43,444 nucleotides of DNA from Minwuia thermotolerans. Lineage in GTDB: Bacteria > Pseudomonadota > Alphaproteobacteria > Minwuiales > Minwuiaceae. The notes under the pieces were generated by a model. That model saw only the letters and a list, made by a program, of their open reading frames with translations. It did no database searches and was not told where the DNA came from. Shown here in pieces: positions 18,773 to 41,691 of the stretch (the stretch's first letter is position 1; each line of letters begins with the position of its first letter). The stretch spans positions 1-43,444 of the forward strand of contig NZ_PIGG01000042.1 in the NCBI RefSeq assembly GCF_002924445.1, written 5' to 3'. Made by a program: the position numbers and the translations under genes.

Positions 18773-18884
18773 GCTGGAGCCCGGGATTGCCGCATTGAGG
18801 CACCCGTTCCATGATCGGGAACTGGAGGAGCGGCGGTCCCGGGCGACCGGAAGCGCCGCCGTTCCTGTCCGGGGCGGAGCGGCG

Positions 18885-19379
18885 ATGCAAGCGCGCAGGA
18901 CGATCCGGGCCGACGTCGCCGAAGTCTTTTCGGCGACGGAGCTGCGCGCCTTCCGGCGCGGAGACGGGCGGATATACACCGTTGTCGGGCACAATCCGGA
19001 TCATCGGCTGCTGACCGATATCTGGCTGGGCGGCTTCGGCTCGCTGGACAATTTCCGCGCCGTGCTCGACTTCGTCTGCGAACGCTTCGAATGCGGCGGC
19101 TACAGCTACTGGCTGGCCGATCTGCGCCACCTTTCGGAGAGTTTCTTCGAGGCGGAGGAATACCTGGCCCGCACCGTCGTCCCGCGTGTGATGGCGGCGG
19201 GCATGCAGCGGGAGGCGGTGGTCGCGCCCGCGCTGGAGCCCGGCGTGCCGCAGGGCTACGACGTCTTCGGCGCCGCCGACACGGCGCTGCGCCGTATCGC
19301 CGATGGCCGCATCCGGGGATTCACCGACATCGCCGCCGCGCGGGCCTGGCTGCTGGACGGCAACCTGCCCGGCGCTTGA
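18885..19379 (+). CDS. Conserved hypothetical, STAS/SpoIIAA-like
   Basis: A protein of 164 residues from the ATG at 18885, which has GGCGGAG six bases upstream; a TTG at 18795 would add 30 residues of unlikely composition. It contains alternating strands and helices such as YTVVGHNPDHRLLTDIWLGGFGSLDNFRAVLDFV and YWLADLRHLSESFFEAEEYLARTVVPRV, resembling the SpoIIAA/STAS-like proteins of unknown role. There are no catalytic motifs. It is downstream of hsp20 on the same strand and could share its transcript. Confidence 0.6.
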   Translation: MQARRTIRADVAEVFSATELRAFRRGDGRIYTVVGHNPDHRLLTDIWLGGFGSLDNFRAVLDFVCERFECGGYSYWLADLRHLSESFFEAEEYLARTVVPRVMAAGMQREAVVAPALEPGVPQGYDVFGAADTALRRIADGRIRGFTDIAAARAWLLDGNLPGA

Positions 19380-19445
19380 GCGTTCCGCCCGCCCGGCGCG
19401 GCGGGTAGTCTTTCCCCGCTGAACGAGCCGAGGGGAGGGGCAGCG

Positions 19446-20237: not shown

Positions 20238-20301
20238 GGCGGCTGTCACATATGCGCGCCGTCGGGATGACGGGACGTGAATATCGTGCGAGACTTCGCG
20301 C

Positions 20302-20850
20302 ATGAACAGGGACGGGACCGCGAAAGAGTCCGGAGCAACCGGGGTCGCGCGGGCGGACATTCCACTGGAACGCGATGTCTTCCTGCGTTCCCTGCTGCGC
20401 GAACTGGCCGGCACGCTGGAAGAGGTGGTGGGTCTGGAAGACGCGTCCGGCTATATCAGCATCGTCGGCGGCGCGATCGGGCGGCAGATCAACGACGATT
20501 ACAGCCGCGCGCTCGGGGTGGAGCGGCTGTCGCGGGAACAGGTCGGCGAGGTGCTCGTCGACCTGAAGCGACGAATCCAGGGCGGTTTCCACATCCTCGA
20601 GATGACCGGGGACCGGATCGTGCTGGGCAACGACCGCTGTCCCTTCGGCGTCCATGTCGAGGGCCGGCCGTCGCTGTGCATGATGACCTCGAACGTCTTC
20701 GGCTACATCGCCGCCGAGAACACGGGCTACGCCCATGTGACGATCGAGGAGGCGATCGCCCGGGGCGATGCCGGCTGCCGGGTGGTGATCGACCTGAAGC
20801 CGCAGGACGAGCCCGGCGACGGTCGGGAGTATTTCGGCGGCGACCTGTGA
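20302..20850 (+). CDS. Methanogen output domain 1 (MetOD1)-like protein
   Basis: A 182-residue protein of the group annotated as methanogen-output-domain-1 containing. After a variable N-terminus come [34 protein letters not shown], an [16 protein letters not shown] helix, NDRCPFG with a cysteine and [23 protein letters not shown]. The cysteines in NDRCPFG and SLCMMTS could bind a metal or ligand, but this is not established. The stop overlaps the start of the next gene, a HisKA_2 kinase, and a receiver follows, so it is probably the input or partner component of that pathway. Confidence 0.65.
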
Positions 20851-28083: not shown

Positions 28084-28758
28084 ATGAGCGTCTACGATCT
28101 GAGCGTTACCGACGCGTTGCTGACCACCACGCGTGCGGTGCGCAAGCGTCTCGACTTCGACCGGACGGTGCCGGACGACGTCATCCGCGAATGCCTGGAA
28201 CTGACCCTGCAGGCGCCGACGGGCTCCAACCGCCAGGGCTGGCGCTGGATCGTCGTCACCGACCGGGGAAAACGCGAACGGCTGGCGGAGATTTACCGCA
28301 AGGGCGCGGGAACCTATCTCGATCAGGGCTACGAGAGCGCGAAGGCCGCCGGCGAGGCGCAGGACAGCCGGGTGTTCGATTCAGCCCGCTATCTGGCCGA
28401 ACGGCTGCAGGATGCACCGGTCCACGTCATCCCCTGCATCCGCGTCGACCACCTGCCGGAGAATCCGCCGCGGCGCGTCTGGGCGGGGCTGATGGGCTCG
28501 ATCATGCCCGCGGTCTGGAGCTTCCAGCTCGCGCTCCGCGCCCGCGGCCTCGGCACCGTGCTGACCACGCTTCATCTCACGCACGAGGAAGAGGCGGCCG
28601 AACTGCTGGGCGTGCCCGACGGCATCATGCAGGTCGGCCTGCTGCCGGTGGCGTACACGCTGGGCACCGATTTCAAACCGGCGAAGCGCCCGCCGCTCGA
28701 CACCATCCTGCACTGGAACCGGTGGGACGCGGAGCGCGACGGGCCGGGGAACTGGTAG
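28084..28758 (+). CDS. Nitroreductase-family flavoprotein
   Basis: A 224-residue FMN-dependent nitroreductase-like protein. TTTRAVRKRLDF binds the FMN phosphate, QAPTGSNRQGWRWIVV is the second flavin loop, and GSIMPAVWSFQLALRARGLGTVLTT with VGLLPVAYTLG completes the fold. An AGGAGG site is just upstream. Its stop lies four bases before the GTG of the flavin monooxygenase, so the two are co-expressed. The substrate is unknown. Confidence 0.86.
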   Translation: MSVYDLSVTDALLTTTRAVRKRLDFDRTVPDDVIRECLELTLQAPTGSNRQGWRWIVVTDRGKRERLAEIYRKGAGTYLDQGYESAKAAGEAQDSRVFDSARYLAERLQDAPVHVIPCIRVDHLPENPPRRVWAGLMGSIMPAVWSFQLALRARGLGTVLTTLHLTHEEEAAELLGVPDGIMQVGLLPVAYTLGTDFKPAKRPPLDTILHWNRWDAERDGPGNW

Positions 28759-28762
28759 GCCC

Positions 28763-30235
28763 GTGAGCGAGGAAACGCGTGCCGACATCGGCATTCTCGG
28801 CGCCGGCATTTCGGGCGTGCTCATGGGCATGCTCTACCGCCGCGCCGGCCTGGACGACTTCATCATCCACGAGAAGCTGCCCGACTACGGCGGAACCTGG
28901 CTGCGCAACACCTATCCGGGGCTCTGCTGCGACGTGCCCTCGCACCTCTACAGCTACAGCTTCGAGCCCAATCCGGACTGGTCCCGGCTCTACGCCAGCC
29001 AGCCGGAGATCCAGCGCTATGTCCGCGCCTGCGCCGAGCGCCACGGCCTGCCGGAGCGCACGCGCTTCCGCGCCGGCGTCGAGACCGCGCGCTTCGAGGA
29101 AGATTCGGGTACCTGGCTGCTGGAGGACGCCGAGGGGCGGCGCACGCGGCACCGGGTGCTGGTCGCCGCCACCGGCGGGCTGACGGCGCCGCGCTTCCCG
29201 AAGATCGGGGGCTATGACGACTTCGAAGGGGAGTTCTGGCATTCGGGCGGATGGCGCAGCGACGTCGACCTGGCGGGCAAGCGGGTCGCCGTCGTCGGCA
29301 GCGCGGCCAGCGCCGTGCAGGTCGTGCCCGAGGTCGCCCGCCGCGCGGCCCGTCTGACCGTCTTCCAGCGCTCGCCAAACTGGATCGTGCCCCGCGGCAA
29401 CCGCCCCTACACCACGGCGGAAAAGGCCGCCTTCCGCGACCGGGCGGCGTGGCGGCGGCACTGGCGCGAGCTGCACCGCCGCTCGCTGCTGCTGCACCGG
29501 GTCTTCCATCGCCGGCCGGACGCCCAGACCGAGTTGCGCCGGCTCTGCCTGGAGCCCATGCGCGCGGCCATCGCCGACCCGGCGATCCGCGAGGCGCTGA
29601 CGCCCGATTACGAGCCCGGCTGCAAGCGCATCCTGTTCTCCGACGACTACTACCCGGCGCTGGCCTGCGACCACGTGACCCTGGCGCCGCGCGGCGTGAA
29701 GGGGCTCTCGCGGCAGGGCGTGGTCGACGCCGCGGGCGAGGAGCACCCGGCCGACATCGTCATCTTCTGCACCGGTTACCGCCTCGGCGGGCGGGAGGAC
29801 GGCAGCCCGGCGGTCGAGGTCTACGGCAGGGACGGGCGGCGTCTCGCCGACGCCATCGGGGAGCGGCCCGAGGCCTGGCGCGGCGTCTCCACGCCCGGCT
29901 TCCCGAACCATTTCACCGTCTGCGGCATCAACGGCGTCGCCGCCTATACCTCCCTCTTCGCCTCGGCCGAGATCAACGGCGCCTATATCGTCCGCATGAC
30001 CCGCCGGGCGCTGGAGACGCCGGGCGGCTGGATCGACATCGACCCGGAGGCCACCGCGGCCTACGCCGCGGGACTGCAGGACCGGCTGCAGCGGATGAGC
30101 TGGGCCGGCGACTGCACCAATTTCTACAAGGACGCGAAGGGCCGGATCCTGTCCTTCTATCCCGGCACCCTGGGCGAGATGCGCCGCCGCGCGGAGGCGG
30201 ACGACGGCGGGAGTTATCGCGTGGCGGGAGGCTGA
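28763..30235 (+). CDS. Flavin monooxygenase, Baeyer-Villiger type
   Basis: A 490-residue two-dinucleotide-site flavoprotein. The FAD motif GILGAGISGVLMG is at the N-terminus and the NADPH motif VAVVGSAASAVQ lies near residue 175. The Baeyer-Villiger fingerprint F-x-G-x3-H-x3-W reads FEGEFWHSGGW (about 154-164). DYGGTWLRNTYPGLCCDVPSHLYSYSF is characteristic of these enzymes. It oxidises ketones to esters or lactones with NADPH and oxygen, and the true substrate is unknown. GTG start at 28763. It is the last chromosomal gene before the tRNA-integrase junction. Confidence 0.86.
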   Translation: MSEETRADIGILGAGISGVLMGMLYRRAGLDDFIIHEKLPDYGGTWLRNTYPGLCCDVPSHLYSYSFEPNPDWSRLYASQPEIQRYVRACAERHGLPERTRFRAGVETARFEEDSGTWLLEDAEGRRTRHRVLVAATGGLTAPRFPKIGGYDDFEGEFWHSGGWRSDVDLAGKRVAVVGSAASAVQVVPEVARRAARLTVFQRSPNWIVPRGNRPYTTAEKAAFRDRAAWRRHWRELHRRSLLLHRVFHRRPDAQTELRRLCLEPMRAAIADPAIREALTPDYEPGCKRILFSDDYYPALACDHVTLAPRGVKGLSRQGVVDAAGEEHPADIVIFCTGYRLGGREDGSPAVEVYGRDGRRLADAIGERPEAWRGVSTPGFPNHFTVCGINGVAAYTSLFASAEINGAYIVRMTRRALETPGGWIDIDPEATAAYAAGLQDRLQRMSWAGDCTNFYKDAKGRILSFYPGTLGEMRRRAEADDGGSYRVAGG

Positions 30236-30278
30236 GGCGCCAGGCGCCGCCCCGAGATTCATCGATTTTCCGGAAATC

Positions 30279-30325
30279 TGGTAGCGGGGGAGGGATTCGA
30301 ACCCCCGACACGCGGATTATGATTC
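30279..30325 (-). other. 3' half of tRNA-Met (anticodon CAU), probable attachment site
   Basis: On the minus strand the 47 bases run from the end of the anticodon stem (GA-ATCATAA-TCCGC) through the variable region, a T arm GGGGG-TTCGAAT-CCCTC, an acceptor strand CCCCGCT-A and an encoded CCA. The 5' half of the tRNA is missing: sequence beyond 30325 is AT-rich and unrelated. A tRNA 3' fragment beside an integrase gene is the usual sign of integration at a tRNA gene. An intact copy is expected at the far end of the element, to the right. Confidence 0.8.
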
Positions 30326-30523
30326 AAATTTTTCGCTGAATTTCATTGAACATTTCGCCACCTTATCGATCTCATAAGCTATTAATATAAAAAGAAAAAA
30401 TGAAATCAGGTGCTCATAGGTGAACATAAATGGATTTTGCAGAGCGGCCAATTTCTGTTACCTATACGTTACCTAAAGCGAGATATCCTAGTGTCGCCCC
30501 GAAGCCCGAAGGAACGCCAAGCG
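30326..30523 (+). promoter_or_regulatory. AT-rich leader of the integrase with GTTACCTA repeats
   Basis: No gene is seen here. The stretch is AT-rich. GTTACCTA occurs at 30457-30464 and 30468-30475, 11 bases apart, and a near-complement ATAGGTGAACA lies near 30416. These could be arm-type integrase or excisionase sites. Confidence 0.4.
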
Positions 30524-31807
30524 ATGCCCAAGCGAAACCTCAATGCGGCAGTGGTCAAGCGCCTGAAACCGCCGGCCAGCGGACAGGAAGATAATTTCGA
30601 CAAGGGTTACCCCGGCCTCGCCCTGCGGATTTCCTATGGGGGGCGGAAAACCTGGGTGTTCTTCTATCGTCTGCATGACAAGCAACGGCGGATGAAGCTC
30701 GGCAGCTGGCCTGCCATGTCGGTAGCAGAGGCGCGACAGGCCTGGCGGGATGCACGAAACGAGGTGGAAGCCGGCAAGGATCCCGCCGCCGAGAAGCTTG
30801 AGGCCCGGCGCCGGGAGCCCGACACTGTTGAACGGGTGGGGGAGCAGTTCATCGAAAAATGGCACCGGCCCCGAAACCGGACAGCCGATGAGGTCGCCCG
30901 GATGCTCGAACGCCATGTCTATCCGGTCATCGGTCACCGGGAGATCGGGGACATCGGGCGACGCGACATCCTCGACGTTCTCGACAAGGCGGAAGCGCGG
31001 GGTCTGTCCGTTGGCGTGAACAGGGTATTGGCGAATGTCCGGCGGCTGTTCGCATGGGCTGTCGAGCGGGGACTGATAGAGACCTCACCGGTGACCGGGG
31101 TCAAACCACCGGCGAAGGAACAGGCGCGGGACCGAGTACTGACGGACTATGAGCTACGCGCGTTTCTCGTGGCGTGCGACAAGGCTGGTCCCCCTTTCGG
31201 CGCGGTCTTCAGGCTATTGCTTCTCACCGCCCAACGACGCGACGAGGTCGTCTCGGCGGCATGGTCGGAATTCGATCTGCGTGAGAAGCTGTGGCGTCTG
31301 CCCGGCGAGCGGACCAAGAACGGCAAACCCCATGATGTGCCATTGAGCCAGGCAGCTGTCGAATTGATCGCCGGGCTTGATAGCAGGGATCATTCGGCCC
31401 TGCTGTTTCCGGCATGGTTCGCCCGCGACGGTCAAAGCGAGCAGAAGGAGCGGCCGGTATCCGGGTTCGGCCGCGCGAAAAACCGGGTCGACGCAGCAAT
31501 GCTCGCCGAACTCCGGCGTATGGCGGAGAAACGTGGCGACGATCCTGCAAAAATCGCACTCATGCCCTGGCGCATTCACGATCTGAGACGCACAGCGGCC
31601 TCCGGGATGGCGCGCCTTGGCGTTGGTATTCATGTCGTCGAGAAGCTTCTGAACCATACAAGCGGGACATTCGGCGGCATCGTCGCCGTGTACCAGCGTC
31701 ACGATTTCGCAGACGAGAAACGAGCCGCGGTGGAAGCCTGGGCCGAGTTCATCGCGACCCTGAGTAGCAAGTCCATTCAAGAGCTCGCGTCAGAAGCTGC
31801 GGATTGA
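30524..31807 (+). CDS. P4-type tyrosine recombinase/integrase
   Basis: A 427-residue integrase with an N-terminal DUF4102 arm-binding domain (GLALRISYGGRKTWVFFYRL, KLGSWPAMSVAEARQAW), a core-binding helical domain and a catalytic domain. The catalytic residues are visible: Arg in LLTAQRRDEVV, His-x-x-Arg in IHDLRRTAASGM, His in LLNHTSGTFGG and the nucleophile in VYQRHDF. The start ATG at 30524 has AAGGA nine bases upstream; the longer frame from 30410 is unlikely. It probably integrates the element at the tRNA-Met gene whose 3' half lies directly upstream. Confidence 0.88.
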   Translation: MPKRNLNAAVVKRLKPPASGQEDNFDKGYPGLALRISYGGRKTWVFFYRLHDKQRRMKLGSWPAMSVAEARQAWRDARNEVEAGKDPAAEKLEARRREPDTVERVGEQFIEKWHRPRNRTADEVARMLERHVYPVIGHREIGDIGRRDILDVLDKAEARGLSVGVNRVLANVRRLFAWAVERGLIETSPVTGVKPPAKEQARDRVLTDYELRAFLVACDKAGPPFGAVFRLLLLTAQRRDEVVSAAWSEFDLREKLWRLPGERTKNGKPHDVPLSQAAVELIAGLDSRDHSALLFPAWFARDGQSEQKERPVSGFGRAKNRVDAAMLAELRRMAEKRGDDPAKIALMPWRIHDLRRTAASGMARLGVGIHVVEKLLNHTSGTFGGIVAVYQRHDFADEKRAAVEAWAEFIATLSSKSIQELASEAAD

Positions 31808-31851
31808 TATCATCGCGGCACCCGTGGGTATTGTCGTAACCAGGGGCATCG

Positions 31852-31877
31852 CGATGCTTCTCCATCAAGGAGCATCG
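31852..31877 (+). promoter_or_regulatory. Inverted repeat enclosing the alpA ribosome site
   Basis: CGATGCT (31852-31858) and AGCATCG (31871-31877) form perfect arms. The ribosome site AAGGAG at 31867-31872 overlaps the second arm, directly before the ATG at 31880. The structure could be an operator or a hairpin that masks translation. Confidence 0.5.
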
Positions 31878-31879
31878 TG

Positions 31880-32077
31880 ATGAGGATACTGTCGAAGCGT
31901 CAGCTGAAGGAGCTGGTTCTGTACTCGCCGCAACATGTCGCGCGGCTGGAAAAGGCCGGGAAGTTCCCCAAGCGGGTCCAGATCGGTCCGAACAGAGTGG
32001 GATGGGTTGAGGACGAAGTGCTTGACTGGCTTCAGGAACGGCTGAACCGCCGGGACGAACCTGTCCGACACTCCTGA
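31880..32077 (+). CDS. AlpA-family/MerR-like helix-turn-helix regulator
   Basis: A 65-residue DNA-binding protein of the AlpA type. The sequence ILSKRQLKELVLYSPQHVARLEKAGKFPKRVQIGPNRVGWVEDEVLDWL matches the winged-helix excisionase-like fold that controls integrases on P4-like islands. ATG at 31880 lies seven bases after AAGGAG; a GTG one codon earlier is possible. It is followed by a good terminator, so it is a single-gene unit next to the integrase. Confidence 0.82.
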   Translation: MRILSKRQLKELVLYSPQHVARLEKAGKFPKRVQIGPNRVGWVEDEVLDWLQERLNRRDEPVRHS

Positions 32078-32089
32078 ATGCAGGAGCGG

Positions 32090-32128
32090 GACGGCCGGGC
32101 GTGCACAGCCCGGCCGTCCTTCATTTCT
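32090..32128 (+). terminator. Intrinsic terminator of the alpA-like gene
   Basis: Arms GACGGCCGGGC (32090-32100) and GCCCGGCCGTC (32108-32118) form an 11-base-pair GC-rich stem with a seven-base loop. A T-rich tract CTTCATTTCT follows. It sits 12 bases after the stop. Confidence 0.8.
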
Positions 32129-32592
32129 GTTGAAGGAGCGTCCGAGGCGCTGATTTCGCGCGAACATGGACGCGGAGCCGCAAGACACGGAACTGAAGGG
32201 CGCCCCACCATGGGAGCGGTCCGGCAGAGACATTGGAGGACGCAGAGGATCGTTCTCGCCCGCTCCAGATTTCCTGGTGCGTCCTGGTACCGAAGGGTCG
32301 CGACGCCTTGCGGCAGACCCGCGTATCATGCCTCGATTCATGGCCCGCCCCGGTGAGCACTGGCCCAGGCAGTCCGACCTCGACCAGCGAAATGATGTTG
32401 CGGAATCAGATCGCTCATTCTAGTTAACCAGTCTCAACTCCGTGGTCGGGAATCCGGGGTTTCGAAGGGCGCTTTGTGTCGGCTTCGCAACCCCATTGTG
32501 TCAGACGGGGTGACAGCCAGACATCCCAACCCCCGAGACACGATGGCGGGCAGGGTTGTTGGAGAGAAATCGAATCCTCCCGGGAGGCCGCT
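32129..32592. other. Gene-poor stretch of the island
   Basis: No convincing coding region in either strand. The short open frames here have no ribosome sites or recognisable motifs. The composition is mixed and it may contain the promoter of the following gene. Confidence 0.4.
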
Positions 32593-33327
32593 GTGAAAAA
32601 CAAGGGAAGGCGACCCTATTCTGGACTGCCGCATCTGGATCTGAATTCGTCTATTCTTTTGGCGCGCGGCGTCCTGCGGGAGAAAGATTCGGCGACGCCA
32701 CATGAGTTTGCGGAGTTTCTGAACCAGGAGAGTTTCAATAGCGGGACGCGTCTCCGGATTGCCGCGACCAGACATTTCGGTCTCACGACAACCGCAATGA
32801 ATTTGGTCAAGATCACGCCGCTTGGCCGGGCGCTCATTGAAAACGATCCAGATGTGGAAAAACTGCAGGTCGCTTTCCTGAATCCGCCCCTGTTTCTGAC
32901 GGCTGCCGCGCATTTCACCGATACGCCGGTTCCGATCGACAATGCGGCGCTGGAAGAATATCTGATCCAGATTGGCGTACGGCCAAGCATGGTGTCCCGC
33001 GCAAGATATGTTTTCCTGAAATCTGCGCAACAGGCCGGACTCATGAAGGCCCGGGGCGACAAGCTGGCGTTTGTCGGTGAGGCCGCGGGTCTCCTGAACT
33101 CGGCGCCGGATCGGCAGTTCAACCCTGCCAGAATCGAGGAGCGCAAGAAGTCGACGCAGTATTTCGATGCGACACTGAGCATGTTTCCCGGAACGGAAAA
33201 CGTATCGATTGACAGGTACTACGAGTGGCTCAGACTTGTTGTCGACGGCATAAATTTCCAGATTTCCGAAGATGAGAACAGGCGGATACAGGTCACGATT
33301 TCTCGCCCGGCGCCGCCGGACTCGTAA
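32593..33327 (+). CDS. Island protein of unknown function, possible winged-helix
   Basis: A 244-residue protein I do not recognise with confidence. It starts at GTG 32593 with GGGAGG five to six bases upstream. The pattern alternates helices and short hydrophobic strands: LLARGVLREKDSATPHEFAEFLNQ, TTTAMNLVKITPLGRALIEND, LEEYLIQIGVRPSMVSRARYVFLKSAQQAGLM. This resembles repeated winged-helix units, somewhat like the DUF5343 group found near mobile genes. A C-terminal segment (FDATLSMFPGTENVSIDRYYEWLRLVV) follows. No nuclease or enzymatic motif is evident. Confidence 0.55.
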   Translation: MKNKGRRPYSGLPHLDLNSSILLARGVLREKDSATPHEFAEFLNQESFNSGTRLRIAATRHFGLTTTAMNLVKITPLGRALIENDPDVEKLQVAFLNPPLFLTAAAHFTDTPVPIDNAALEEYLIQIGVRPSMVSRARYVFLKSAQQAGLMKARGDKLAFVGEAAGLLNSAPDRQFNPARIEERKKSTQYFDATLSMFPGTENVSIDRYYEWLRLVVDGINFQISEDENRRIQVTISRPAPPDS

Positions 33328-33753
33328 TTCCGGGCGCGCCCGACCTCCGGTCCCGGCGCCCGGCGGCTTGGACGATGCAGCCGGAGAAGGTGGTCGGGCA
33401 GGGATCGGATCCCCGATCGTGCCATGATGCTCCACAATCCTCGATCATCATGCTGTTGCGGTCGACAAGTGGGTCGACCGACGACGTCGCGTAGCCCGGC
33501 GAGGAGTCGGGGCCGGCGGAGGGCCTGGCTCGCAGGGCACGGTCAGCTTGAAGTCCATGCGTGCTTCAGATCGGCAATGTCTCACTTGACGTGGGCGTCG
33601 CGCGATGTCGATAAGAAAGCCAGGAGGGCAGGCGGACATATGACCATTGCTTCGTCACGGGAGCGTTCGGGCTCGGTCACCTGGCGTTGCTCGCCCCGCC
33701 GTTCTACAGTCGCATTCATCTTTTTGCGTGTTGTCGCGACGGAGGCGTGATCC
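33328..33753. other. Gene-poor stretch with small inverted repeats
   Basis: I see no supported gene. Two inverted repeats are present: GATCGG-ATCC-CCGATC at about 33403-33418, and CATGATG (33423-33429) with CATCATG (33446-33452). GTCGAC occurs twice just after. A GGAGG at the right end belongs to the next gene. Confidence 0.4.
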
Positions 33754-34209
33754 TTGGCCAGAATATACGCGCGCACGAATTATATCGCCCATGACATCAC
33801 GCCGGGGAAGCTCTACCCGGTTCGCGAGGACGACGGCCACAAGTTCACAATCGTTGACGACTCCGGACGCGAACTGGCCTGCCACTGGCGCGGCTGTGCG
33901 CATCTTGGCCGCGAGGACTGGGAACGCTTCGAAACGGATGACCCGCGAGCCCGTGCATCCGTCGACGAGAAAGTTAACAATCTGGCAATGTTTACCGACT
34001 TTGACCCGCAGATCGACGAGCTGAAGATGGTTGTCCGGGAGAATGCGGCGCGTGTCACGGAGCTGCAGCTGCTGAACCTCGATCTTCTGCATGCGCTGCG
34101 CCGGGCCCGAATCGCCCTCGGACCGTTTCACAACCACAAGGATCCGACCTTGCTGGCCGAGATCGATGCGGCGATAGCCGCAGCGGAGGACGCTGGTCCG
34201 GACCGTTGA
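33754..34209 (+). CDS. Island hypothetical protein
   Basis: A 151-residue protein without a recognised family. The N-terminal part is a small beta-rich domain (ITPGKLYPVREDDGHKFTIVDDSGRELACHWRGCAHL), and the C-terminal half is helical (ELKMVVRENAARVTELQLLNLDLLHALRRAR), probably coiled coil. The start is TTG at 33754 with GGAGG eight bases upstream. Phage-derived or island-specific origin is likely from position. Confidence 0.5.
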   Translation: MARIYARTNYIAHDITPGKLYPVREDDGHKFTIVDDSGRELACHWRGCAHLGREDWERFETDDPRARASVDEKVNNLAMFTDFDPQIDELKMVVRENAARVTELQLLNLDLLHALRRARIALGPFHNHKDPTLLAEIDAAIAAAEDAGPDR

Positions 34210-34493
34210 GTGCCGGCCGCGCCAGGCGGCGTCCATCGGCGCTTCGCACCGCGCACCGGCGAGGCCAACTTCGGCTCAAATCAAAGTTGCGGATCGAGGG
34301 GCCGTGGCAATCGAGCGGCGGCCCCAGGGTTGTCGTGGCGGGGCATGCCTGCTTGCAGCGCGATGGGCGGTGGCCTACCAGAGGGCAGGCGTTTCCCGGC
34401 GCCCCGATCGGGGCCAACGGATCGCGTACGCCATGCGTAATCTGGAAAGATGTGTCGGTCGACAGGGCCGGCCGGGACAAGGAGAGCAAGCGG

Positions 34494-34676
34494 ATGAACA
34501 TCGAGGACCTGGTCCTGAGCTACGACTTCGAAAGGGAAGCGTTCAAGGTGCAGGGTCCGGACGGCGAGAAACCCATTGCTGCAGAGACCGCCGCGGCCCT
34601 TGCCCAGTTGCAGTCGCTGGAGATGATCCGGCGGGTGGCGAAGACGATGGAGCGGCTGGGGTTCGCGCTCGATTGA
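34494..34676 (+). CDS. Small hypothetical protein
   Basis: A 60-residue protein with a good AAGGAGA ribosome site 8-10 bases before the ATG at 34494. The sequence MNIEDLVLSYDFEREAFKV, GPDGEKPIAAETAAALAQL and a final helix MIRRVAKTMERLGFALD looks like a folded small protein, but I recognise no family. About 285 bases without a gene precede it. Confidence 0.5.
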   Translation: MNIEDLVLSYDFEREAFKVQGPDGEKPIAAETAAALAQLQSLEMIRRVAKTMERLGFALD

Positions 34677-34905
34677 GGGGAGGCCAGGGCCTTGGGGTCA
34701 AGCCAGCGGCGCCATCATGAGGCGCACGGCATATCGCTCAGGCCAGAAGCGTGATCGACGCGCCTTTTCGGGCGGCTGAAGGCAAGTGTAGAACCGGTGT
34801 GCCGGCGCGCCGGAGCGGAAGCGGGTTTCGTGATCTGCATCTGCACCATGCGAGGCGCGCATGGTATGTCGGTCGGGGCCGGATCGGGGCGGTTGGGGCA
34901 CATCG

Positions 34906-36018
34906 ATGCATGTCGTGATGACCGTGAATGCGGCCTGGAATATCTGGAATTTCCGCCGGGATCTGGTGGCCGCACTCCTGGCGGAAGGGCACGATATCAC
35001 GGTGGCGGCGCCGCCCGATGACAGTGTCGCCGAGCTCGAGGCGCTGGGGTGCCGGTTTATCCCGTTGAAGATGAGTGCTCAAAGTCTGAGCCCCGTCGAA
35101 GGGATGAAGCTCCGCGCCCAGTACAAGGATCTGTTCCGCAGCCAGCGCCCCGACATCGTGCTGAGCTACACCATCAAGAACAACATCTTCGGCGCCATGG
35201 CGGCCCGGGCCTGCCGGGTGCCTTTCATTCCCAACGTCACGGGGCTGGGCACCGCTTTCCTGTCAGGCGGTATCCTTCAGTTCGTGGCAGAGGGTCTCTA
35301 CCGCCAGGCGTTCAGCCAGTTGCCCGTCGTGTTTTTCCAGAACCGGGACGACCGGGACCTCTTTCTCGCCCGGGGGATTATCCGTGCGGATCAGGCCCGC
35401 CTGCTGCCCGGTTCCGGGATCGATCTCCGGCGGTTTGCCGCCGCCGCCTACGCGGACGACGCGGAAGCGACGATTTTCCTGATGATCGGCCGATTGCTGA
35501 GAGACAAGGGGGTGAGGGAATTCGTCGACGCCGCGCGCATGGTCCGCCGCCATCGGCCCGATGCGCAGTTCCGCTTGCTTGGCGCCGTCGACGCGGCCAA
35601 TCGGACCGCCATCGATCGCGAGACCGTGGCGCGCTGGGAGCGGGAAGGCGTGGTCGAATATCTCGGCGTGCAGCCGGATGTGCGCCCGTCGATCGCCGCC
35701 GCCCATTGCGTGGTCCTGCCCTCCTACCGCGAAGGCGCCCCCCGGACCCTGATCGAGGCCGCCGCGATGGCGCGTCCCCTGATCGCGACGGACGTGCCGG
35801 GCTGCCGGGACGTGGTCGATCATGGCAACACCGGATTTCTGTGTGAGCCAGGCGACGCCGCAAGCCTTGCCGCCGCCTGCCAGACCTTTCTGTCCCTGCC
35901 GCGGGAGACGAGAGCGGCGATGGGGCGGGCGGGCCGGGCCAGGATGGCCGCGGCGTTCGATCAGACGATTGTGCTGGACGCCTATCGGAAGGCGATGGCC
36001 GAGATGACCGCAGGATAG
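34906..36018 (+). CDS. GT4-family glycosyltransferase
   Basis: A 370-residue GT-B glycosyltransferase of family 4. The N-terminal acceptor domain includes VMTVNAAWNIWNFRRDLVAALLAEGHDITVAAP and IPNVTGLGTAFLSGG. The C-terminal donor domain includes IFLMIGRLLRDKGVREFVDAAR and the E-x7-E motif in YREGAPRTLIEAAAMARPLIATDVPGCRDVV. Similar enzymes add N-acetylgalactosamine or related sugars to undecaprenyl-linked intermediates, as in the PglA group. It acts at the cytosolic face of the inner membrane. Start ATG at 34906. The YdcF-like gene follows after seven bases. Confidence 0.85.
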   Translation: MHVVMTVNAAWNIWNFRRDLVAALLAEGHDITVAAPPDDSVAELEALGCRFIPLKMSAQSLSPVEGMKLRAQYKDLFRSQRPDIVLSYTIKNNIFGAMAARACRVPFIPNVTGLGTAFLSGGILQFVAEGLYRQAFSQLPVVFFQNRDDRDLFLARGIIRADQARLLPGSGIDLRRFAAAAYADDAEATIFLMIGRLLRDKGVREFVDAARMVRRHRPDAQFRLLGAVDAANRTAIDRETVARWEREGVVEYLGVQPDVRPSIAAAHCVVLPSYREGAPRTLIEAAAMARPLIATDVPGCRDVVDHGNTGFLCEPGDAASLAAACQTFLSLPRETRAAMGRAGRARMAAAFDQTIVLDAYRKAMAEMTAG

Positions 36019-36025
36019 CAGGGCG

Positions 36026-36811
36026 ATGGATACGGTCTTCTTTATCGCGTCCAAGCTGGTGGGTCTGCTGATCCGGGTCGACAGCTGGATCGTGCTGGCC
36101 CTGGCGCTCATCGTGATCGCGCTGTTCATGGAATGGCGCCGTCTGGCCAAGGTCCTGGCGGTCGGCACGATCACTGTTCTGCTGGCCCTCTCGATCCTGC
36201 CCTTGGGCGACTTGCTGCTTCGGCCGCTGGAGAGCGCCTATGCACCGGCGCCGCAGCTCGACCGGGTGGATGGCATCATCGTCCTGGGCGGCGGGGAGGA
36301 CGCCGCGGCGTCCCGCTTCTGGGGTCAGGCGCAGGTCAATGAGGGCGGCGACCGTTTTCTCGCTGCCCTGTCGCTGGCGCATCGTTTTCCTGACGCCGTT
36401 GTGCTTTTCGCCGGCGGCAGCGGCCGGCTCCGCGATACCGCCGGCGGCGCCGGGGCGACGGAAGCCGATGTCGCCGCGCAGATCTTCCGCGCCCAGGGCC
36501 TGGCGCCGGATCGCCTGCTGCTGGAGAGCCGCTCGCGCAACACGGCGGAAAATGCGCGCCTGAGCCATGCGCTGGCGCAGCCGGAGGCGGACGAGGTCTG
36601 GGTGCTGGTGACCAGCGCCTTCCATATGCCCCGGGCGATGGCGAGTTTCCGGGCGGCCGGCTGGGAGGGGCTTGTCGCCTATCCGGTCGATTATCGCACA
36701 AGCGGCTTCGCCGACGGCCTCGAATGGGAACCGGCCGGCCATATCGAGACGCTCAACACGGCGATCAAGGCATGGGTCGGGCTGATCGCCTATCGCCTCG
36801 CCGGCCGCTGA
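36026..36811 (+). CDS. YdcF/ElyC/SanA-family (DUF218) membrane protein
   Basis: A 261-residue protein with two N-terminal transmembrane segments (SWIVLALALIVIALFMEW and VLAVGTITVLLALSILPLG) and a periplasmic DUF218 domain: IIVLGGGEDAAASRFWGQ, VVLFAGGSGRL, LLLESRSRNTAENARLS and VLVTSAFHMPRAMASFRAAGW. ElyC in E. coli affects lipid-carrier and envelope polysaccharide balance. Here it follows a glycosyltransferase gene, so an envelope-assembly role is likely. Confidence 0.85.
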   Translation: MDTVFFIASKLVGLLIRVDSWIVLALALIVIALFMEWRRLAKVLAVGTITVLLALSILPLGDLLLRPLESAYAPAPQLDRVDGIIVLGGGEDAAASRFWGQAQVNEGGDRFLAALSLAHRFPDAVVLFAGGSGRLRDTAGGAGATEADVAAQIFRAQGLAPDRLLLESRSRNTAENARLSHALAQPEADEVWVLVTSAFHMPRAMASFRAAGWEGLVAYPVDYRTSGFADGLEWEPAGHIETLNTAIKAWVGLIAYRLAGR

Positions 36812-36813
36812 AT

Positions 36814-37326
36814 TCAGGCGAGGCGGAGCTTGTCGGCGGCCACCGTCATGCGCGTCTTGCGTCCCATGAGATCGAGCAACACGAAGACCCGGTTGTCGGG
36901 GGCCAGTTTCTCGACGGTGGCGACAAAGTCCGCAAAAGGCCCGCGGGCAATCCGCACCGCGTCGCCGGGCGCGAGCGTGCTGGGGGGCTGGAACTTGCCT
37001 TCTCTGTCGCAGCGCGCCATCAGGCCATCGACCAGCTCGGACGGCACCGGCGCCGGGCTCCGCCCGAAACTGACCAGGCGGGCGACGCCGGTGGTCGAAT
37101 TGACCTTGCGCCAGAGGCCGTGGTCTGGATCGAAGGCGATGAAGATGTAGCCGGGGAACAAGGGCCGCAGCAGGGTCAGGAACTTCCCCCGCTGGCGCCG
37201 GGTCTCTTCCTGCATGGGCAGGAAATAGCGGAAGCCCTGGCGGTCCAGATTGCGTCTCGCAAGCTTGTGGCCGTTCGGCTTCAGCTGCGCCAGGAACCAG
37301 CGCGACCCCTCGTCGGTATCTGTCAT
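36814..37326 (-). CDS. NusG-like transcription antiterminator (RfaH-type paralogue)
   Basis: A 170-residue NusG-family protein. The NGN domain (RWFLAQLKPNGHKLARRNLDRQGF, FLPMQEETRRQRGKF, LFPGYIFIAFDPDHGLWRKVNSTTGVARLV) is followed by a KOW domain (LAPGDAVRIARGPFADFVATVEKL... RVFVLLDLMGRKTRMTV). Specialised NusG paralogues load on long polysaccharide operons and suppress termination. It starts at 37326 with GGAG six bases upstream. It is divergent from the EPS-associated MarR gene and convergent with the YdcF-like gene, whose stop is two bases away. It probably serves the cluster to its right. Confidence 0.85.
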   Translation of the reverse strand: MTDTDEGSRWFLAQLKPNGHKLARRNLDRQGFRYFLPMQEETRRQRGKFLTLLRPLFPGYIFIAFDPDHGLWRKVNSTTGVARLVSFGRSPAPVPSELVDGLMARCDREGKFQPPSTLAPGDAVRIARGPFADFVATVEKLAPDNRVFVLLDLMGRKTRMTVAADKLRLA

Positions 37327-37390
37327 GGAACGCTCCGATACACCCTCACAGCGATCTGATATCGATTTCCGAGGCTGTGGGAAAGCCGAA

Positions 37391-37406
37391 TGTTCATTTT
37401 TGAACA
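37391..37406. promoter_or_regulatory. Palindrome 1 in the divergent regulatory gap
   Basis: TGTTCA-TTTT-TGAACA is a perfect inverted repeat. Its core GTTCATTTTTGAAC recurs with two T-to-C changes at 37540-37553. It is a candidate operator for the divergent MarR-type regulator. Confidence 0.55.
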
Positions 37407-37538
37407 GTCGGCGGCGAGGCGACGGATCGGGCCTGCGGTGGCTTTCCGGCGGCGCGCCGGGGTGATTGATGCCAGGGGCCGCACGGGGAGCCAGATATGA
37501 TGTTCGCGGCGCTTGCGTTCGCTCACGGCGATCCGTAT

Positions 37539-37554
37539 CGTTCATCTTCGAACG
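37539..37554. promoter_or_regulatory. Palindrome 2 in the divergent regulatory gap
   Basis: CGTTCATCTTCGAACG shares the pattern GTTCATYTTYGAAC with palindrome 1 and lies 148 bases from it. The pair sits between the NusG-like gene and the EPS-associated MarR gene. Confidence 0.55.
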
Positions 37555-37620
37555 AATGCAGTTGCGTCACCGCCCATTCTTGCGCGAGCCAGACCGTGAT
37601 CGGCATAGAGCCAGTCGCGG

Positions 37621-37632
37621 TGCGGTAGCCTG
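37621..37632 (+). promoter_or_regulatory. ops-like element upstream of the EPS cluster
   Basis: TGCGGTAGCCTG differs from the enterobacterial ops sequence GGCGGTAGCGTG at two positions. It is on the strand transcribed toward the MarR and polysaccharide genes and lies beside a divergent RfaH-like gene. Whether this family uses such an element in alphaproteobacteria is not known. Confidence 0.35.
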
Positions 37633-37701
37633 CGCGATTTCTCCGGCCGCTCTCGCGGGAGAGAGCTGATACCGGGCCGGCGGGACGATCTCCAGGAAGA
37701 T

Positions 37702-38043
37702 GTGCACTTCCGTATTCTCAGACTCTTGCAGGCCAATCCGGAGATGAGCCAGCGCGAGATGTCCGATGCCCTGGGTGTCAGCTTAGGGGGCGTGAACTAC
37801 TGTCTCAAGGCGCTGCTTGAGAAGGGGCTGGTGAAGCTGGGCAATTTCTCCGCTGCGCCCGACAAGCGCCGCTACGCCTATATCCTGACGCGCAAGGGCG
37901 TGCTCGAGAAGGCCCGGCTGACGCGGCGCTTCCTGAAGCGCAAGATGGCCGAGTACGAGGCGCTGAAGGCCGAGATCGAGACCGTGCGCGCGGAGATGGA
38001 CATCGACGCCGAGCTGGCGCCGCAGCCCTCTCGGGATGCATGA
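37702..38043 (+). CDS. MarR-family EPS-associated transcriptional regulator
   Basis: A winged-helix regulator of about 113 residues of the EPS-associated MarR type. The DNA-binding core is FRILRLLQANPEMSQREMSDALGVSLGGVNYCLKALLEKGLVKLGNF, followed by KRRYAYILTRKGVLEKARLTRRFLKRKMAEYEALKAEIE with a C-terminal coiled coil. The GTG at 37702 is the first standard start, but residues DLQED just upstream in frame resemble the family N-terminus, so the true start may be a nonstandard codon near 37666. Two similar palindromes upstream suggest autoregulation and control of the divergent NusG-like gene. Confidence 0.82.
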   Translation: MHFRILRLLQANPEMSQREMSDALGVSLGGVNYCLKALLEKGLVKLGNFSAAPDKRRYAYILTRKGVLEKARLTRRFLKRKMAEYEALKAEIETVRAEMDIDAELAPQPSRDA

Positions 38044-38215
38044 GCGCGGCCGGGCGCTATGGCCGGGGCCATCGGCCCGTGGGGCGAGGCGGGGCTTCCG
38101 GGGCCGCATCCTTCCGCCGGTTCGTTACGTTATCGGGCATTTGGAGGGGGGCGCGTCATGAGGCTGGCGACCGAGTGGTCGTCGATCCCGCCCGGAGACG
38201 CCGGGTTTGCTGAAG

Positions 38216-38229
38216 TTCACTTGAGTGAA
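38216..38229. promoter_or_regulatory. Palindrome before the frameshifted membrane gene
   Basis: TTCACT-TG-AGTGAA is a perfect inverted repeat with a two-base spacer, directly upstream of the disrupted small membrane protein gene. It could be an operator for an unidentified regulator. Confidence 0.4.
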
Positions 38230-38233
38230 ACAG

Positions 38234-38595
38234 GTGCCCGAGACGTATCAGCGAATGGTCGGCCCTGACTGGTATGAGCTCTGACCTGGTATGAGTTTAA
38301 GACGAGCATCACGGATGCCGTCGGTATTCCCGCGGATGCGTTCCATCTGCCTCTCGGGCTTGTCGTCTATCTTGTCGTGGCTTGGCTCTTGCGCCGCTTC
38401 CGATGGGGGCCGGTCTGGGCGCTTCTGCCGGTGGTTCTTCTCCAGGGGCTCAACGAGGCGCTCGACGCGAGGGATTGGCGTCAATGGACCGGATCGGTGT
38501 CATGGGCAGAGGCAGTGGTCGACACATTGGCGACAATTGCTCTGCCGGTCGTTGTGGCGGTGGTCTGGATGCTGAGGCGCACGCGGAAAAATTGA
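38234..38595 (+). pseudogene. Small membrane protein disrupted by 17-bp duplication
   Basis: A short protein with two hydrophobic helices (LPLGLVVYLVVAWLLRRF, WALLPVVLLQGLNEALDARDW) and a last helix IALPVVVAVVWMLRRTRKN. It resembles the small VanZ-like or glycine-leucine-rich inner-membrane proteins in alphaproteobacteria. Its N-terminus appears in another frame from a GTG at 38234 (PETYQRMVGPDWYE), then hits a stop at 38282-38284. TGGTATGAG occurs at 38270 and again at 38287, so an imperfect 17-base tandem duplication shifted the frame; removing 17 bases restores one continuous frame. It is either broken or a sequencing artefact. Confidence 0.45.
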
Positions 38596-38754
38596 TCAAG
38601 GTTGGGATCTAAAGGAAGGCATGAGACGGTGAGTGCCAGTGGCGGAATACCGGACTCATACATGGGACCCCCATCGCGCGGGGCTCAAACGCGATTCGAC
38701 CCTCTCTGTCTTCAGTCTCGTCTCCGATGCCCTCGACACAGTGCCTGAAGGCTG

Positions 38755-38943
38755 GTGAGAACTGTTGTCAACGCGCTGTCCAACGACAAAGCGATTAAAA
38801 TGTTCATGCACCGGCTCAGCAGCGTGAAGGCCTTTGGCCGGCCCGCATATCTGGGCAAGGAACGTTCAGCTTTGGGGATTGGAGTCGATCTTCTATTCGC
38901 AGATATCGCTATGACGTCAGCGGGTGTCGAGGTGTGCGCTTGA
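38755..38943 (+). CDS. Possible small hypothetical protein upstream of the GNAT gene
   Basis: A 62-residue open frame starting near 38755, with SNDKAIKMFMHRLSSVKAFGRPAYLG and SALGIGVDLLFADIAM as plausible helices. Its stop overlaps the GTG of the GNAT gene, matching the overlap habit of this operon. No family is recognised and no clear ribosome site is present, so it may be a remnant. The rest of 38596-38933 holds no other supported gene. Confidence 0.25.
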   Translation: MRTVVNALSNDKAIKMFMHRLSSVKAFGRPAYLGKERSALGIGVDLLFADIAMTSAGVEVCA

Positions 38944-39503
38944 GCCTGGCGGTTGACGGGTTGCAGCGCGTGGAAGGCGTCCGGCTGGCGATCCGTCTCG
39001 TGGAGCCGAGTGATGCCGCATATATTCATGGCTTGAGAACCGATCCGGCATACAACACCCACCTTTCCAAGGTTTCGGGGACGGTCGATGACCAGCGCGC
39101 CTGGATTGAGTCCTACAAGGGGCGGGAGGCGGAGGGCCGCGAATATTACTATGTGATCGAGCGTCTCGCCGACGGAATGCTATGCGGCGTTGTTCGCCTC
39201 TACGACATCCGGGAAGAGAGCTTCACCTGGGGCAGCTGGATCCTCGACGAGAACAAGCCCCGCAAGGCCGCATTGGAGAGCGCGTTGCTTTCCTTCGGGG
39301 TCGGGTTCGATCATCTTGGCCTGCCGACGGCGTTGATCGACGTACGGCGCGACAATCACCGGGCGCTGGACTTCTACCGGCGCCTTGGAATGAAGGAAAC
39401 CGGTGCTGACGATGTTGATATTTATTTCTCGTACTCTGAGGACCGATATTTTCAGGATCGAGAGCTATTCATGGCCACTGTGCGAGAGGCAGGCGCTGCA
39501 TGA
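38934..39503 (+). CDS. GNAT-family N-acetyltransferase
   Basis: A 189-residue acetyl-CoA-dependent transferase. The GNAT pattern is visible as IRLVEPSDAAYIHGLR, YYVIERLADGMLCGVVRLYDI, WGSWILDENKPRKAALESALLSF and a C-terminal VRRDNHRALDFYRRLGMKETG. The usual glycine-rich acetyl-CoA loop reads NKPRKAALES, so the pyrophosphate loop is atypical. The context with a ketoisomerase and an aminotransferase suggests N-acetylation of an amino-deoxysugar nucleotide. GTG at 38934 is the likely start. The stop overlaps the FdtA-like gene start. Confidence 0.78.
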   Translation: MRLSLAVDGLQRVEGVRLAIRLVEPSDAAYIHGLRTDPAYNTHLSKVSGTVDDQRAWIESYKGREAEGREYYYVIERLADGMLCGVVRLYDIREESFTWGSWILDENKPRKAALESALLSFGVGFDHLGLPTALIDVRRDNHRALDFYRRLGMKETGADDVDIYFSYSEDRYFQDRELFMATVREAGAA

Positions 39504-39937
39504 GCCTTGGCAACCAACTCTCCCCGGGTATGGCTCAACTGATAGACCTCCCGGTAGTCACGGATCCAAGAGGCGATCTTACATTTGTCGAAGGCGGTAA
39601 TCACGTACCCTTTGACATCGCCAGGGTCTATTATCTCTACAATGTCCCGGTTGATGCGGAGCGCGGAGGCCACGCCCATAGGCAGCTTCAACAGGTCGTC
39701 TTCGCATTGTCAGGGAGTTTCCGTCTCAGGGTCGATGATGGTAAGGCGCGCGAAGAATACTGGTTGCGAGACCCACGGCAGGGCGCCTTCATAAATCGGT
39801 TGATCTGGCGCGAAATGGACCGCTTCAGCCAGGGTGCGGTCTGCATGGTTCTCGCCTCGCACCCTTATGACGAGACGGACTACATTCGCGACTACGACGA
39901 ATTTCTCCAGGCGGCGGCGCGGGCGCGTGTCCGATGA
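39500..39937 (+). CDS. fdtA: dTDP-4-oxo-6-deoxyglucose 3,4-ketoisomerase-like (FdtA/QdtA type)
   Basis: A 145-residue cupin of the WxcM-like family. The motifs [51 protein letters not shown] and [17 protein letters not shown] match the sugar ketoisomerases. The catalytic His pair lies in GGHAHRQ. It isomerises dTDP-4-keto-6-deoxyglucose to the 3-keto form, giving the 3-amino sugar after transamination. FdtA and QdtA cannot be told apart here. The stop overlaps the aminotransferase start (ATGA). Confidence 0.85.
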
Positions 39938-41052
39938 TCCCCTTCCTTGATCTGAAAGCGGCGTACTGCGAACTCAAGCCCGAGATCGACGCAGCGATCC
40001 ACCGTGTGCTCGAGTCCGGCTGGTACATCCTCGGGCCGGAGGCCGAGGCTTTCGAGGCCGAATGGGCTGAGTATTGTGGCGCAGCCCACGCGGTCGGCCT
40101 GGCCAACGGGCTGGATGCGTTGACCCTGGCGCTTCGAGCCTTGGAGGTCGGGTCGGGGGATGAGGTGATCGTGCCCTCGAACACCTATATCGCGACATGG
40201 CTGGCCGTCAGCGCCGTCGGCGCTCGGCCCGTACCGGTCGAGCCCGACCCCGCGACGTACAACATCGATCCCGACCGGATCGTGGCGGCGATCACGCCTG
40301 CCACAAGGGTCCTCCTGCCGGTCCACCTCTACGGTCAGCCGGCCGATCTCGACCCGATTCTGACTCTCGCGCGGAAACATGAGCTGGCCGTGGTCGAGGA
40401 CGCCGCCCAGGCCCATGGCGCGCGCTACAAGGGACGGCGGATTGGATCTCATGGTGATGTCGTCTGCTGGAGCTTCTATCCTGGCAAGAACCTCGGCGCA
40501 CTCGGTGATGCTGGGGCCGTCACCACGGATCGCGCTGACCTGGCCGACCGCATTCGGGTTCTGCGCAATTACGGCTCACGCCGAAAATACGTGAACGAAG
40601 CGGCCGGCGTAAATTCGCGACTTGATCCCCTTCAGGCCGCGGTGCTGCGGGTGAAGCTGAAGGTGCTGGACGAGTGGACCGAACGCCGCCGCGCTGTTGC
40701 CACGGCCTATGCGGAGGGGCTGCGGGGCAGCGGCCTCACCCTGCCATATGCGCCCGACTGGGCCGAGCCTGTCTGGCACCTGTACGTGGTGCGCAGCGAG
40801 GCGCGGGACGCACTGCAGGAACGTCTGACGAACGCGGGCATCGACACGCTGATCCACTACCCGATTCCGCCGCATATGCAAGGAGCCTATGCCGAACTGA
40901 AGATGGCCCCCGAGGCAATGCCGCTGGCCCGCGATCTTGCGGACAAACTGCTGAGCCTCCCGATGGGACCACATCTTGGCACCGCACGGGCGCGTTCTGT
41001 GGTTTCCATGCTGACCGCCATGAAAGTGGCTAAAGAGAACCCGGGCCGATGA
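39934..41052 (+). CDS. PLP-dependent sugar aminotransferase (DegT/DnrJ/EryC1 family; FdtB/QdtB type)
   Basis: A 372-residue aspartate-aminotransferase-fold enzyme of the sugar aminotransferase family. [21 protein letters not shown] starts the protein, [16 protein letters not shown] binds PLP phosphate, [11 protein letters not shown] carries the aspartate, and [15 protein letters not shown] carries the Schiff-base lysine. The C-terminus with [13 protein letters not shown] matches FdtB/QdtB. It should add the 3-amino group to the ketoisomerase product. It overlaps both neighbours by four bases. Confidence 0.87.
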
Positions 41053-41609
41053 AGTTCCTGGATCTCCTATCGCGATTGGCTGGGTACCGAGCGCGGCTTA
41101 GATATGAGATCTGGTGCCGCAAGCAGCGACTCTTCGGACGGGTAGTTGTGCATGGTCCAAAAGGAGTACTTGGGCGCAATGTTAGGGTACTGGGAGGCGT
41201 GGCAATGGACCTTGGGGCGCGGGTCGGTATCCGGGAGAACGTTATAATTGGCGGATATGGGCACTTTATCGTTGGGAACGATACGGCGATCAACGAAGGC
41301 TGCATCATCACAGCAATGGAGAAGGTAGAGATAGGCGCAAACGTCATGCTGGCACCGCGAGTCTACCTCCTCGACGTTGACCACCGGTTTGAACGCCGCG
41401 ACATTCCAATTTCGAAGCAGGGCTATTTGGTGCGTCCCGTCAGGATCGAGGACGATGTCTGGATCGGGACAGGGGCAGTTATCACCAAAGGTGTCACGAT
41501 CGGCCGGGGCGCGATCATTGGTGCCAACAGTGTGGTCACCCGCGATGTGCCCGCCTACGCAATCGCGGCTGGCGTACCGGCGATGGTGGTCAAAGGGCGC
41601 CCCGAATGA
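41049..41609 (+). CDS. Hexapeptide-repeat acyltransferase (left-handed beta-helix)
   Basis: A 186-residue LbH acyltransferase. Hexapeptide rungs are visible in [28 protein letters not shown] and in [53 protein letters not shown], with the catalytic histidine likely in [12 protein letters not shown]. It could acetylate the 3-amino sugar (FdtC-like role) or O-acetylate the glycan. It overlaps the aminotransferase by four bases. Base composition from here on is more AT-rich, typical of exchanged O-antigen genes. Confidence 0.83.
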
Positions 41610-41691
41610 CTTTTGACCTCCGCGACACGCTCCCCGTTCCAATGCGCAACTCAAATTGTCCGAGCCGGGCACGCAGGACAAGTCGCTGACG

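Follow-up and report, generated by a model that had tools for sequence, protein, structure and literature searches.

Organization of the integrase locus

The window analyzed here is the entire contig C42 of Minwuia thermotolerans (genome G000), 43,444 bp in length (Table 1). As the initial annotation had claimed, the stretch ahead of the integrase gene is the 47-base 3′ half of a tRNA-Met(CAT) gene, running from the anticodon loop to the CCA end. In a BLAST search of this one genome, the half was 100% identical (86 bits, E = 4e-18) to the 3′ portion of an intact tRNA-Met(CAT) gene at C40:222318-222394, which holds the one further copy of the 47-base core in the genome. The core begins four nucleotides ahead of the anticodon and ends at the CCA, with no identity beyond, as measured in the congener G006; the same 47 bases match in G000. 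ARAGORN called no tRNA within the window, and the label "Met" is that of ARAGORN, which does not tell elongator Met from Ile(CAU). The sequence following the half is AT-rich, as initially described, with a GC content of 0.39 compared to 0.675 for positions 1-30278.

The integrase gene is followed by an AlpA-family regulator, which is likely the directionality factor. The sole Rfam match in the window, to Trans44_sRNA (a family from Ruegeria), lies over alpA with 223 bits; the family was not found at the Ruegeria plasmid locus. Read by eye, the printed consensus of this family is itself an AlpA-like ORF with a 5′ hairpin that includes the start codon. The annotated "sRNA" may be an alpA mRNA whose start is structure-controlled. 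Further downstream, the NusG-family protein is, in our reading, RfaH-like, from its position among the glycan genes. At the start of the contig (175-1390, minus strand), an NTPase-like protein sits beside a small restriction-endonuclease-fold-like protein, a possible defence pair by sequence reading.

The truncated frame at the right end of the contig appears to us to encode an IS630-type transposase. Contig C40 also terminates in a transposase gene, with rve domains, 100% identical copies of which occur elsewhere in G000; the intact tRNA-Met lies 8.7 kb from that terminus. No second tRNA copy is seen in the window because the assembly is broken and the contig ends there.

Table 1. Features of the window from the tRNA half to the end of the contig
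Feature	Position	Strand	Evidence
Displaced tRNA-Met(CAT) 3′ half, att core of the integrase-side end	30279-30325	-	100% identical to C40:222348-222394 and G006:794166-794212
Integrase-side att arm between core and integrase, AT-rich	30326-30523		GC 0.39 over 30326-30520
Putative arm-type repeat pair GTTACCTA	30457-30475 (30457-30464, 30468-30475)	+	Same pair at the far end on C40
Tyrosine recombinase (integrase) with P4-type arm domain	30524-31807	+	PF13356, PF22022, PF00589 (Arm-DNA-bind_3, Phage_int_M, Phage_integrase)
Hairpin with the alpA start codon in its 3′ arm; first part of the Trans44_sRNA match	31847-31882	+	Rfam match 31847-32111
AlpA-family regulator, putative excisionase or activator	31880-32077	+	PF05930, E 2e-9; 98% identical in G006
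Uncharacterized protein, common to G006	32476-33327	+	No Pfam or PADLOC match; 87% identical in G006
Uncharacterized protein, common to G006	33754-34209	+	No Pfam or PADLOC match; 96% identical in G006
Small uncharacterized protein, common to G006	34491-34676	+	No Pfam match; 95% identical in G006
Glycosyltransferase family 4	34861-36018	+	PF13692, PF00534
DUF218 protein	36026-36811	+	PF02698
NusG-family protein	36814-37545	-	PF02357, PF00467
MarR-type winged-helix regulator	37702-38043	+	PF13412 and related
Glycan genes, non-collinear with G006	38573-43206	+	Pfam; nucleotide collinearity stops at 38572
Within these: GNAT, FdtA-like, DegT aminotransferase, hexapeptide transferase, Polysacc_synt flippase-like	38934, 39500, 39934, 41049, 41656	+	Pfam
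Transposase C-terminal end, cut by the contig end	43213-43443	-	Open frame reaching the contig end

The complete island in a related species

Six other genomes of the genus were searched. One of them, G006, consists of a single contig and has both ends, the half at 794166-794212 and an intact tRNA at 877158-877237, both on the minus strand. They bound one interval of 82,945 bp (82,992 bp from CCA to CCA, ~83 kb), so that the intact tRNA is linked to the half rather than lying elsewhere in the genome. The island is ordered as displaced half, integrase, AlpA, surface-polysaccharide genes and intact tRNA-Met. Window positions 28113-38572 (28113 being the start of the sequence taken for comparison) and the first 16.7 kb of the C40 locus (L006) are collinear with G006 from outside inward, with short gaps. 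On the left, the two species share a host nitroreductase and a monooxygenase, followed by the half-tRNA, the integrase and AlpA; on the right, they share host genes from FtsK to an LLM oxidoreductase, followed by the tRNA, an XRE regulator, YcaO, a BTAD regulator and a peroxidase, the host genes being named from reading of their translations. The GC content is 0.61-0.63 in the island compared to 0.675-0.695 in the host, and 0.61 compared to 0.675 for the flanks in G006.

Both the polarity of the half and the ends seen on C40 and in G006 place the element to the right of position 30325, as proposed initially, and rule out an element to the left of the tRNA fragment. As also anticipated, it runs past the window, which is a whole contig, and has the intact tRNA at its far end. 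This is seen directly in G006; the corresponding end of G000 lies on C40, and we infer from G006 that C42 and C40 are physically linked. The term "scar" used at first does not fit, since the tRNA half is the integrase-side end of a whole island.

The arm-type sites of tyrosine integrases are typically paired repeats at both island ends. The motif GTTACCTA has two matches in the window, compared to a mean of 0.06 expected from shuffles, and a pair of its own at the C40 end. These tandem repeats are likely the arm sites to which the integrase would bind.

Pfam searches of 20 of the 73 called ORFs in the G006 island revealed an ABC exporter, a DegT aminotransferase, a cytidylyltransferase fused to an aldo/keto reductase, a NeuB-family synthase, a UDP-GlcNAc 2-epimerase, glycosyltransferases, a sugar dehydratase, a nucleotidyl transferase, a Wzy_C protein, a Wzz protein with an ATPase domain and a bacterial sugar transferase. 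The same 20 ORFs include one weak TrwB-like match, one DUF87 protein, ParB and Replic_Relax, and no relaxase. No capsid, portal, terminase or tail genes turned up in the subset of ORFs scanned. The G006 island also has two more tyrosine recombinases, a serine recombinase and, in our reading, several insertion sequences; together with ParB, these suggest that the island may be composite. One segment, G006:C1:852256-865299 (L049), carries the TrwB-like (weak), Replic_Relax, ParB and DUF87 genes along with the serine recombinase, and has G000 matches of at most 222 bases; it is perhaps a later insertion into the island.

Age of the island and probable exchange of its glycan genes

Comparison of G000 with G006 gave a synonymous divergence (dS) of 0.141 for the integrase and, at the far end, 0.112 for XRE, 0.126 for YcaO, 0.163 for BTAD and 0.157 for the peroxidase. 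Three host flank genes gave similar values (0.161, 0.151 and 0.138), which indicates that insertion of the island predates the separation of the two species. By this measure, its ends have been resident for about as long as G000 and G006 have been apart. Given such vertical inheritance since the split, the island may have stopped moving, and its present-day mobility is putative.

The glycosyltransferase, DUF218, NusG-like and MarR genes, common to both species, have higher dS near the glycan breakpoint (0.233, 0.235, 0.274 and 0.267, respectively), though without a smooth gradient, as the proteins at 32476 and 33754 have 0.363 and 0.142. Beyond 38572, the GNAT, FdtA, DegT, hexapeptide transferase and flippase-like genes of the window differ from those of G006. 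Two other contigs of G000, C19 and C30, match G006 at 833-851 kb with 76-92% identity and probably belong to the G000 island; the dehydratase stretch, part of the C19 match, also has 94% identical copies on C41 and C50. We read the dS pattern as pointing to an exchange of glycan genes inside the resident island. The proposal that polysaccharide genes ride on the element was borne out directly in G006, and in G000 by their position and the shared frame.

Altogether, with a probability of roughly 0.93, the DNA to the right of 30325 is a site-specific integrative island, inserted in tRNA-Met, that carries surface-polysaccharide genes, predates the divergence of G000 and G006, and has had its glycan genes exchanged in situ since. 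What began as a 47-base oddity has become an island of 83 kb with a map, which suggests that genes for surface polysaccharides can be traded within an island fixed in a single tRNA gene in both species.

Three other explanations were weighed. The integrase of the window might come from an element that is short or has decayed, with the C40 end belonging to another element in the same tRNA, as in a tandem array; two of the relatives' records each place a pair of related integrases on a single contig (L085/L102 and L093/L098), and further recombinases lie inside the G006 island. However, 100 kb of G006 contains exactly two copies of the 47-mer and four of GTTACCTA, two per outer end and none on the other strand, and the identical repeat pair and similar dS at both ends of the island make such an array improbable. 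That the tRNA half is a dead scar of a lost element beside an unrelated integrase remnant is more improbable still. Decay at tRNA-Met is illustrated by G001, where other DNA occupies the site and arm-like repeats are kept, but no relative of the integrase or displaced half was found; in the window, by contrast, the integrase and alpA are full-length, their dN/dS against G006 is 0.142 and 0.106 (for alpA with a dS of just 0.065 over 65 codons), which points to constraint on both, and the island's far end is intact. That a piece of tRNA arose here by chance or was duplicated locally, for which no supporting point was found, is scarcely credible for 47 identical bases that end at the CCA and have counterparts beside related integrases at many tRNAs.

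Empty sites and a sister element in the genus

An empty site was found for a sister element and not for the island itself. Among the genomes compared (41 and, within the genus, seven, searched with the flank proteins), none has the flanks of G000 and G006 joined without the island. The tRNA-Met of G001 to G004 lies in another context than in G000 and G006, and only two of seven congeners gave a match to the left-flank gene at 26849. G002, by contrast, carries an element of 10,422 bp in the same tRNA-Met with the same layout (half at 8094-8140, integrase at 8406, intact tRNA at 18516-18592). G003 is the empty site of this element: the left flank (G002 7796-8140, 85%) and the right flank (18516-20534, 89%) join through the tRNA at 1176656, the left-flank homology being just ~350 bp, beyond which the genomes differ. 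G004 is likewise empty, with a weaker left flank (72%). The 47-base half is absent from both of these element-free relatives, which speaks against a tRNA fragment existing independently of any element. A related integrase of the same genus, 39% identical to that of the window, therefore inserts in tRNA-Met in this way.

Compared to the island of the window, the G002 element is much smaller, has GATACCC pairs at its ends (by eye), and bears a relic tRNA-Phe half at its far end. Its cargo is a two-reverse-transcriptase defence pair, Drt3a and Drt3b (PADLOC; L075, 14903-18131). At the corresponding locus of G001 (L076, 3929-9929), PADLOC gave a large protein that weakly matches restriction enzymes, alongside a type II methyltransferase.

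The tRNA-Phe half lies ~140 bases inside the tRNA-Met far end in both G002 (L075; 41 of 45 bases) and G001 (L076; 40 of 45), compared to 26 and 24 for the best of 200 shuffles. The G000 and G006 islands showed no second half at either end, and 12 other loci showed none at their far ends (14 halves tried; best identity 0.50-0.56). In the integrase tree, the G002 integrase groups with tRNA-Phe users (SH-aLRT 100). The simplest reading is that the G002 element is a former tRNA-Phe element that moved to tRNA-Met and retained its old half. These relics make the change of tRNA target by an integrase testable on real sequences.

Comparison with known island classes

In the Islander collection, 2083 of 3919 islands have an anticodon-centred site A and 1836 a site J (PMC4383910); the anticodon-centred site of the present island is in this respect already known. 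The island resembles the site-A class of that paper in all the features compared: an intact tDNA at one end and a same-orientation 3′ fragment at the other (in G006 directly, in G000 across two contigs), a tyrosine integrase gene between them, and a 47-nt core from the anticodon loop to the 3′ end. We found no difference in kind, the integrase position relative to the fragment not being stated in the portion of PMC4383910 available to us.

The designation of the integrase as P4-type held for the protein and not for the usual P4 layout. Like P4- and CP4-57-like islands, the window island has an integrase with Arm-DNA-bind_3 and Phage_integrase domains, a tRNA target and an AlpA-family regulator. 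AlpA-family regulators are associated with P4-like elements. However, the integrase gene of P4- and CP4-57-like islands adjoins the intact tRNA, directly downstream on the same strand, whereas in the window it is the displaced half that the integrase gene faces, and the gene and the tRNA are on opposite strands. The 47-nt core starting in the anticodon loop also departs from the short core expected of a crossover near the tRNA 3′ end. The island itself is of a known kind, and its shared polarity and the relic half may be points for specialists. No statement of a rule that the integrase lies beside the displaced half was found in the parts of the literature on integrase position and tRNA sublocation that we could consult, and we do not claim the rule as unpublished.

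Polarity of related integrases

A scan of one genome per species yielded 57 integrase relatives, around which tRNA halves were sought as a T-arm followed by CCA outside the tRNAs called intact by ARAGORN. A half lies upstream of the integrase on the opposite strand in 46 of the 57, the canonical layout occurs in one, and ten show neither; these loci are not all independent, many being close kin and two contigs contributing two loci each. No half was found on the integrase's own strand among the 57. The distance from half to integrase is below 600 bp in 27 of the 46, 0.9 kb in one, 2.5-4.1 kb in 16, and 2.9 and 3.5 kb in the remaining two. In the sole canonical relative, L131, the integrase gene directly follows an intact tRNA-Thr on its own strand. 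L097 and L117 also have intact tRNAs on the integrase's strand, 1.5-1.8 kb upstream and farther than the half. Among the ten with neither layout, L104 has a half with a damaged CCA and L130 a truncated half (by eye), and in L116 and L135 the upstream sequence is too short. Halves outside the upstream position were seen in L113 (overlap of a circular contig) and L115 (6 kb downstream). An intact tRNA marks the far end in 12 loci, with an identical core of 45-51 nt in nine and of 17, 32 and 37 nt in three.

A second set, the best-scoring 28 new loci from 385 genomes of the class, gave 22 opposite-strand halves, no canonical layout and six without; it shares three places with the control and may overlap with the 57. 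The control comprised 30 Arm-DNA-bind_3 integrases, the best-scoring one in each of 30 genomes, out of 33 that gave a match (57 genomes searched), and yielded 13 canonical, five inverted and 12 without a tRNA in reach; one of the five inverted, L163, also has an intact tRNA-Lys on the integrase's strand further upstream. As the control yields both layouts, the method detects both. G000 itself has a canonical-layout island, at the tRNA-Thr on C31 (L140). Far copies were found for two of eight canonical controls, with suffixes of 20 and 14 nt (an internal 17-nt match in G034 being left out of this count), which fits a crossover near the tRNA 3′ end, compared to 47 nt in the window island.

On a tree of 83 integrases, the 35 inverted and 11 canonical rows need three state changes between them; setting "inverted" against all other rows, unlabelled included, takes 17 changes, compared to a shuffled mean of 26.9. 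The tree comes from a quick search and has several long branches; 37 rows are marked "none", including the 16 with halves at 2.5-4.1 kb, and six loci were left out as too short (L127, L132, L136, L138, L144 and L166). The integrase also matches 3890 plasmid and 482 phage-collection records, all below 60% identity; in the two examined, the unverified metagenome scaffold MT837765.1 and a locus on the Ruegeria pomeroyi megaplasmid with 3 kb of upstream sequence, no T-arm with CCA was found. Two relatives occur on viral contigs, one with a tRNA-Phe half in the same layout and the other lacking upstream sequence.

The 16 elements with distant halves use tRNA-Phe and are mostly from Rhodobacteraceae (L084, L085, L089-L093, L095, L096, L098-L100, L102, L103, L107 and L115). 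The 2.5-4.1 kb between their att half and integrase consist of varying DNA, like a cargo slot, with a short conserved leader ahead of the integrase and unrelated sequence beyond (by eye).

For annotation, a tRNA half should be sought ~150-500 bp before an integrase of this branch, on the opposite strand, with the far end being the place to look for the intact tRNA; in the tRNA-Phe elements, the half often lies 2.5-4 kb before the integrase.

A model of integration

Anticodon-loop sites are a described class (PMC4383910 and PMC8371274). We propose that the circular form of the island would carry a tRNA-Met 3′ half with its anticodon end toward the integrase, in the arrangement seen for the tRNA-Lys half of L113. 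As the limits of the core suggest, crossover by the tyrosine integrase would take place within the anticodon loop of the host's tRNA-Met gene, a symmetric segment, the exact bases being presumptive. The half brought by the island would then complete the tRNA at the far end, matching the sequence on C40, and the host's own half would be displaced next to the integrase, matching the 47 bases in the window. Transcription that reads through the tRNA would run into the XRE/YcaO/BTAD end, the first three genes of which share its direction, and not into the integrase.

Taken as a whole, a broader picture can be put forward tentatively, with somewhat less than even odds that all its parts hold. P4-type integrases may include a large branch, widespread among the Alphaproteobacteria, that possesses an inverted attP, so that the integrase gene lands beside the displaced half, which is read away from it. 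The integrase would be insulated from tRNA-promoter read-through, which would enter the cargo end instead. The branch may move between many tRNA isoacceptors with its polarity kept, and upon a switch of target the old half could stay as a fossil, as with the tRNA-Phe relic in the tRNA-Met elements of G001 and G002. One element of this kind may, in G000 and G006, have become a fixed site of surface-glycan gene exchange.

The nearest to an excised form in the data is L113, with no counterpart for G000 or G006. This metagenome contig of 11,202 bp has the same 77 bases at both termini, as expected when a circle, or copies joined head to tail, are assembled; the circular form would measure 11,125 bp. 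Its single att is one tRNA-Lys half with the integrase adjoining, in the inverted layout. Inspection by eye shows AlpA-like and primase-like genes and a large ORF resembling a restriction-modification protein.
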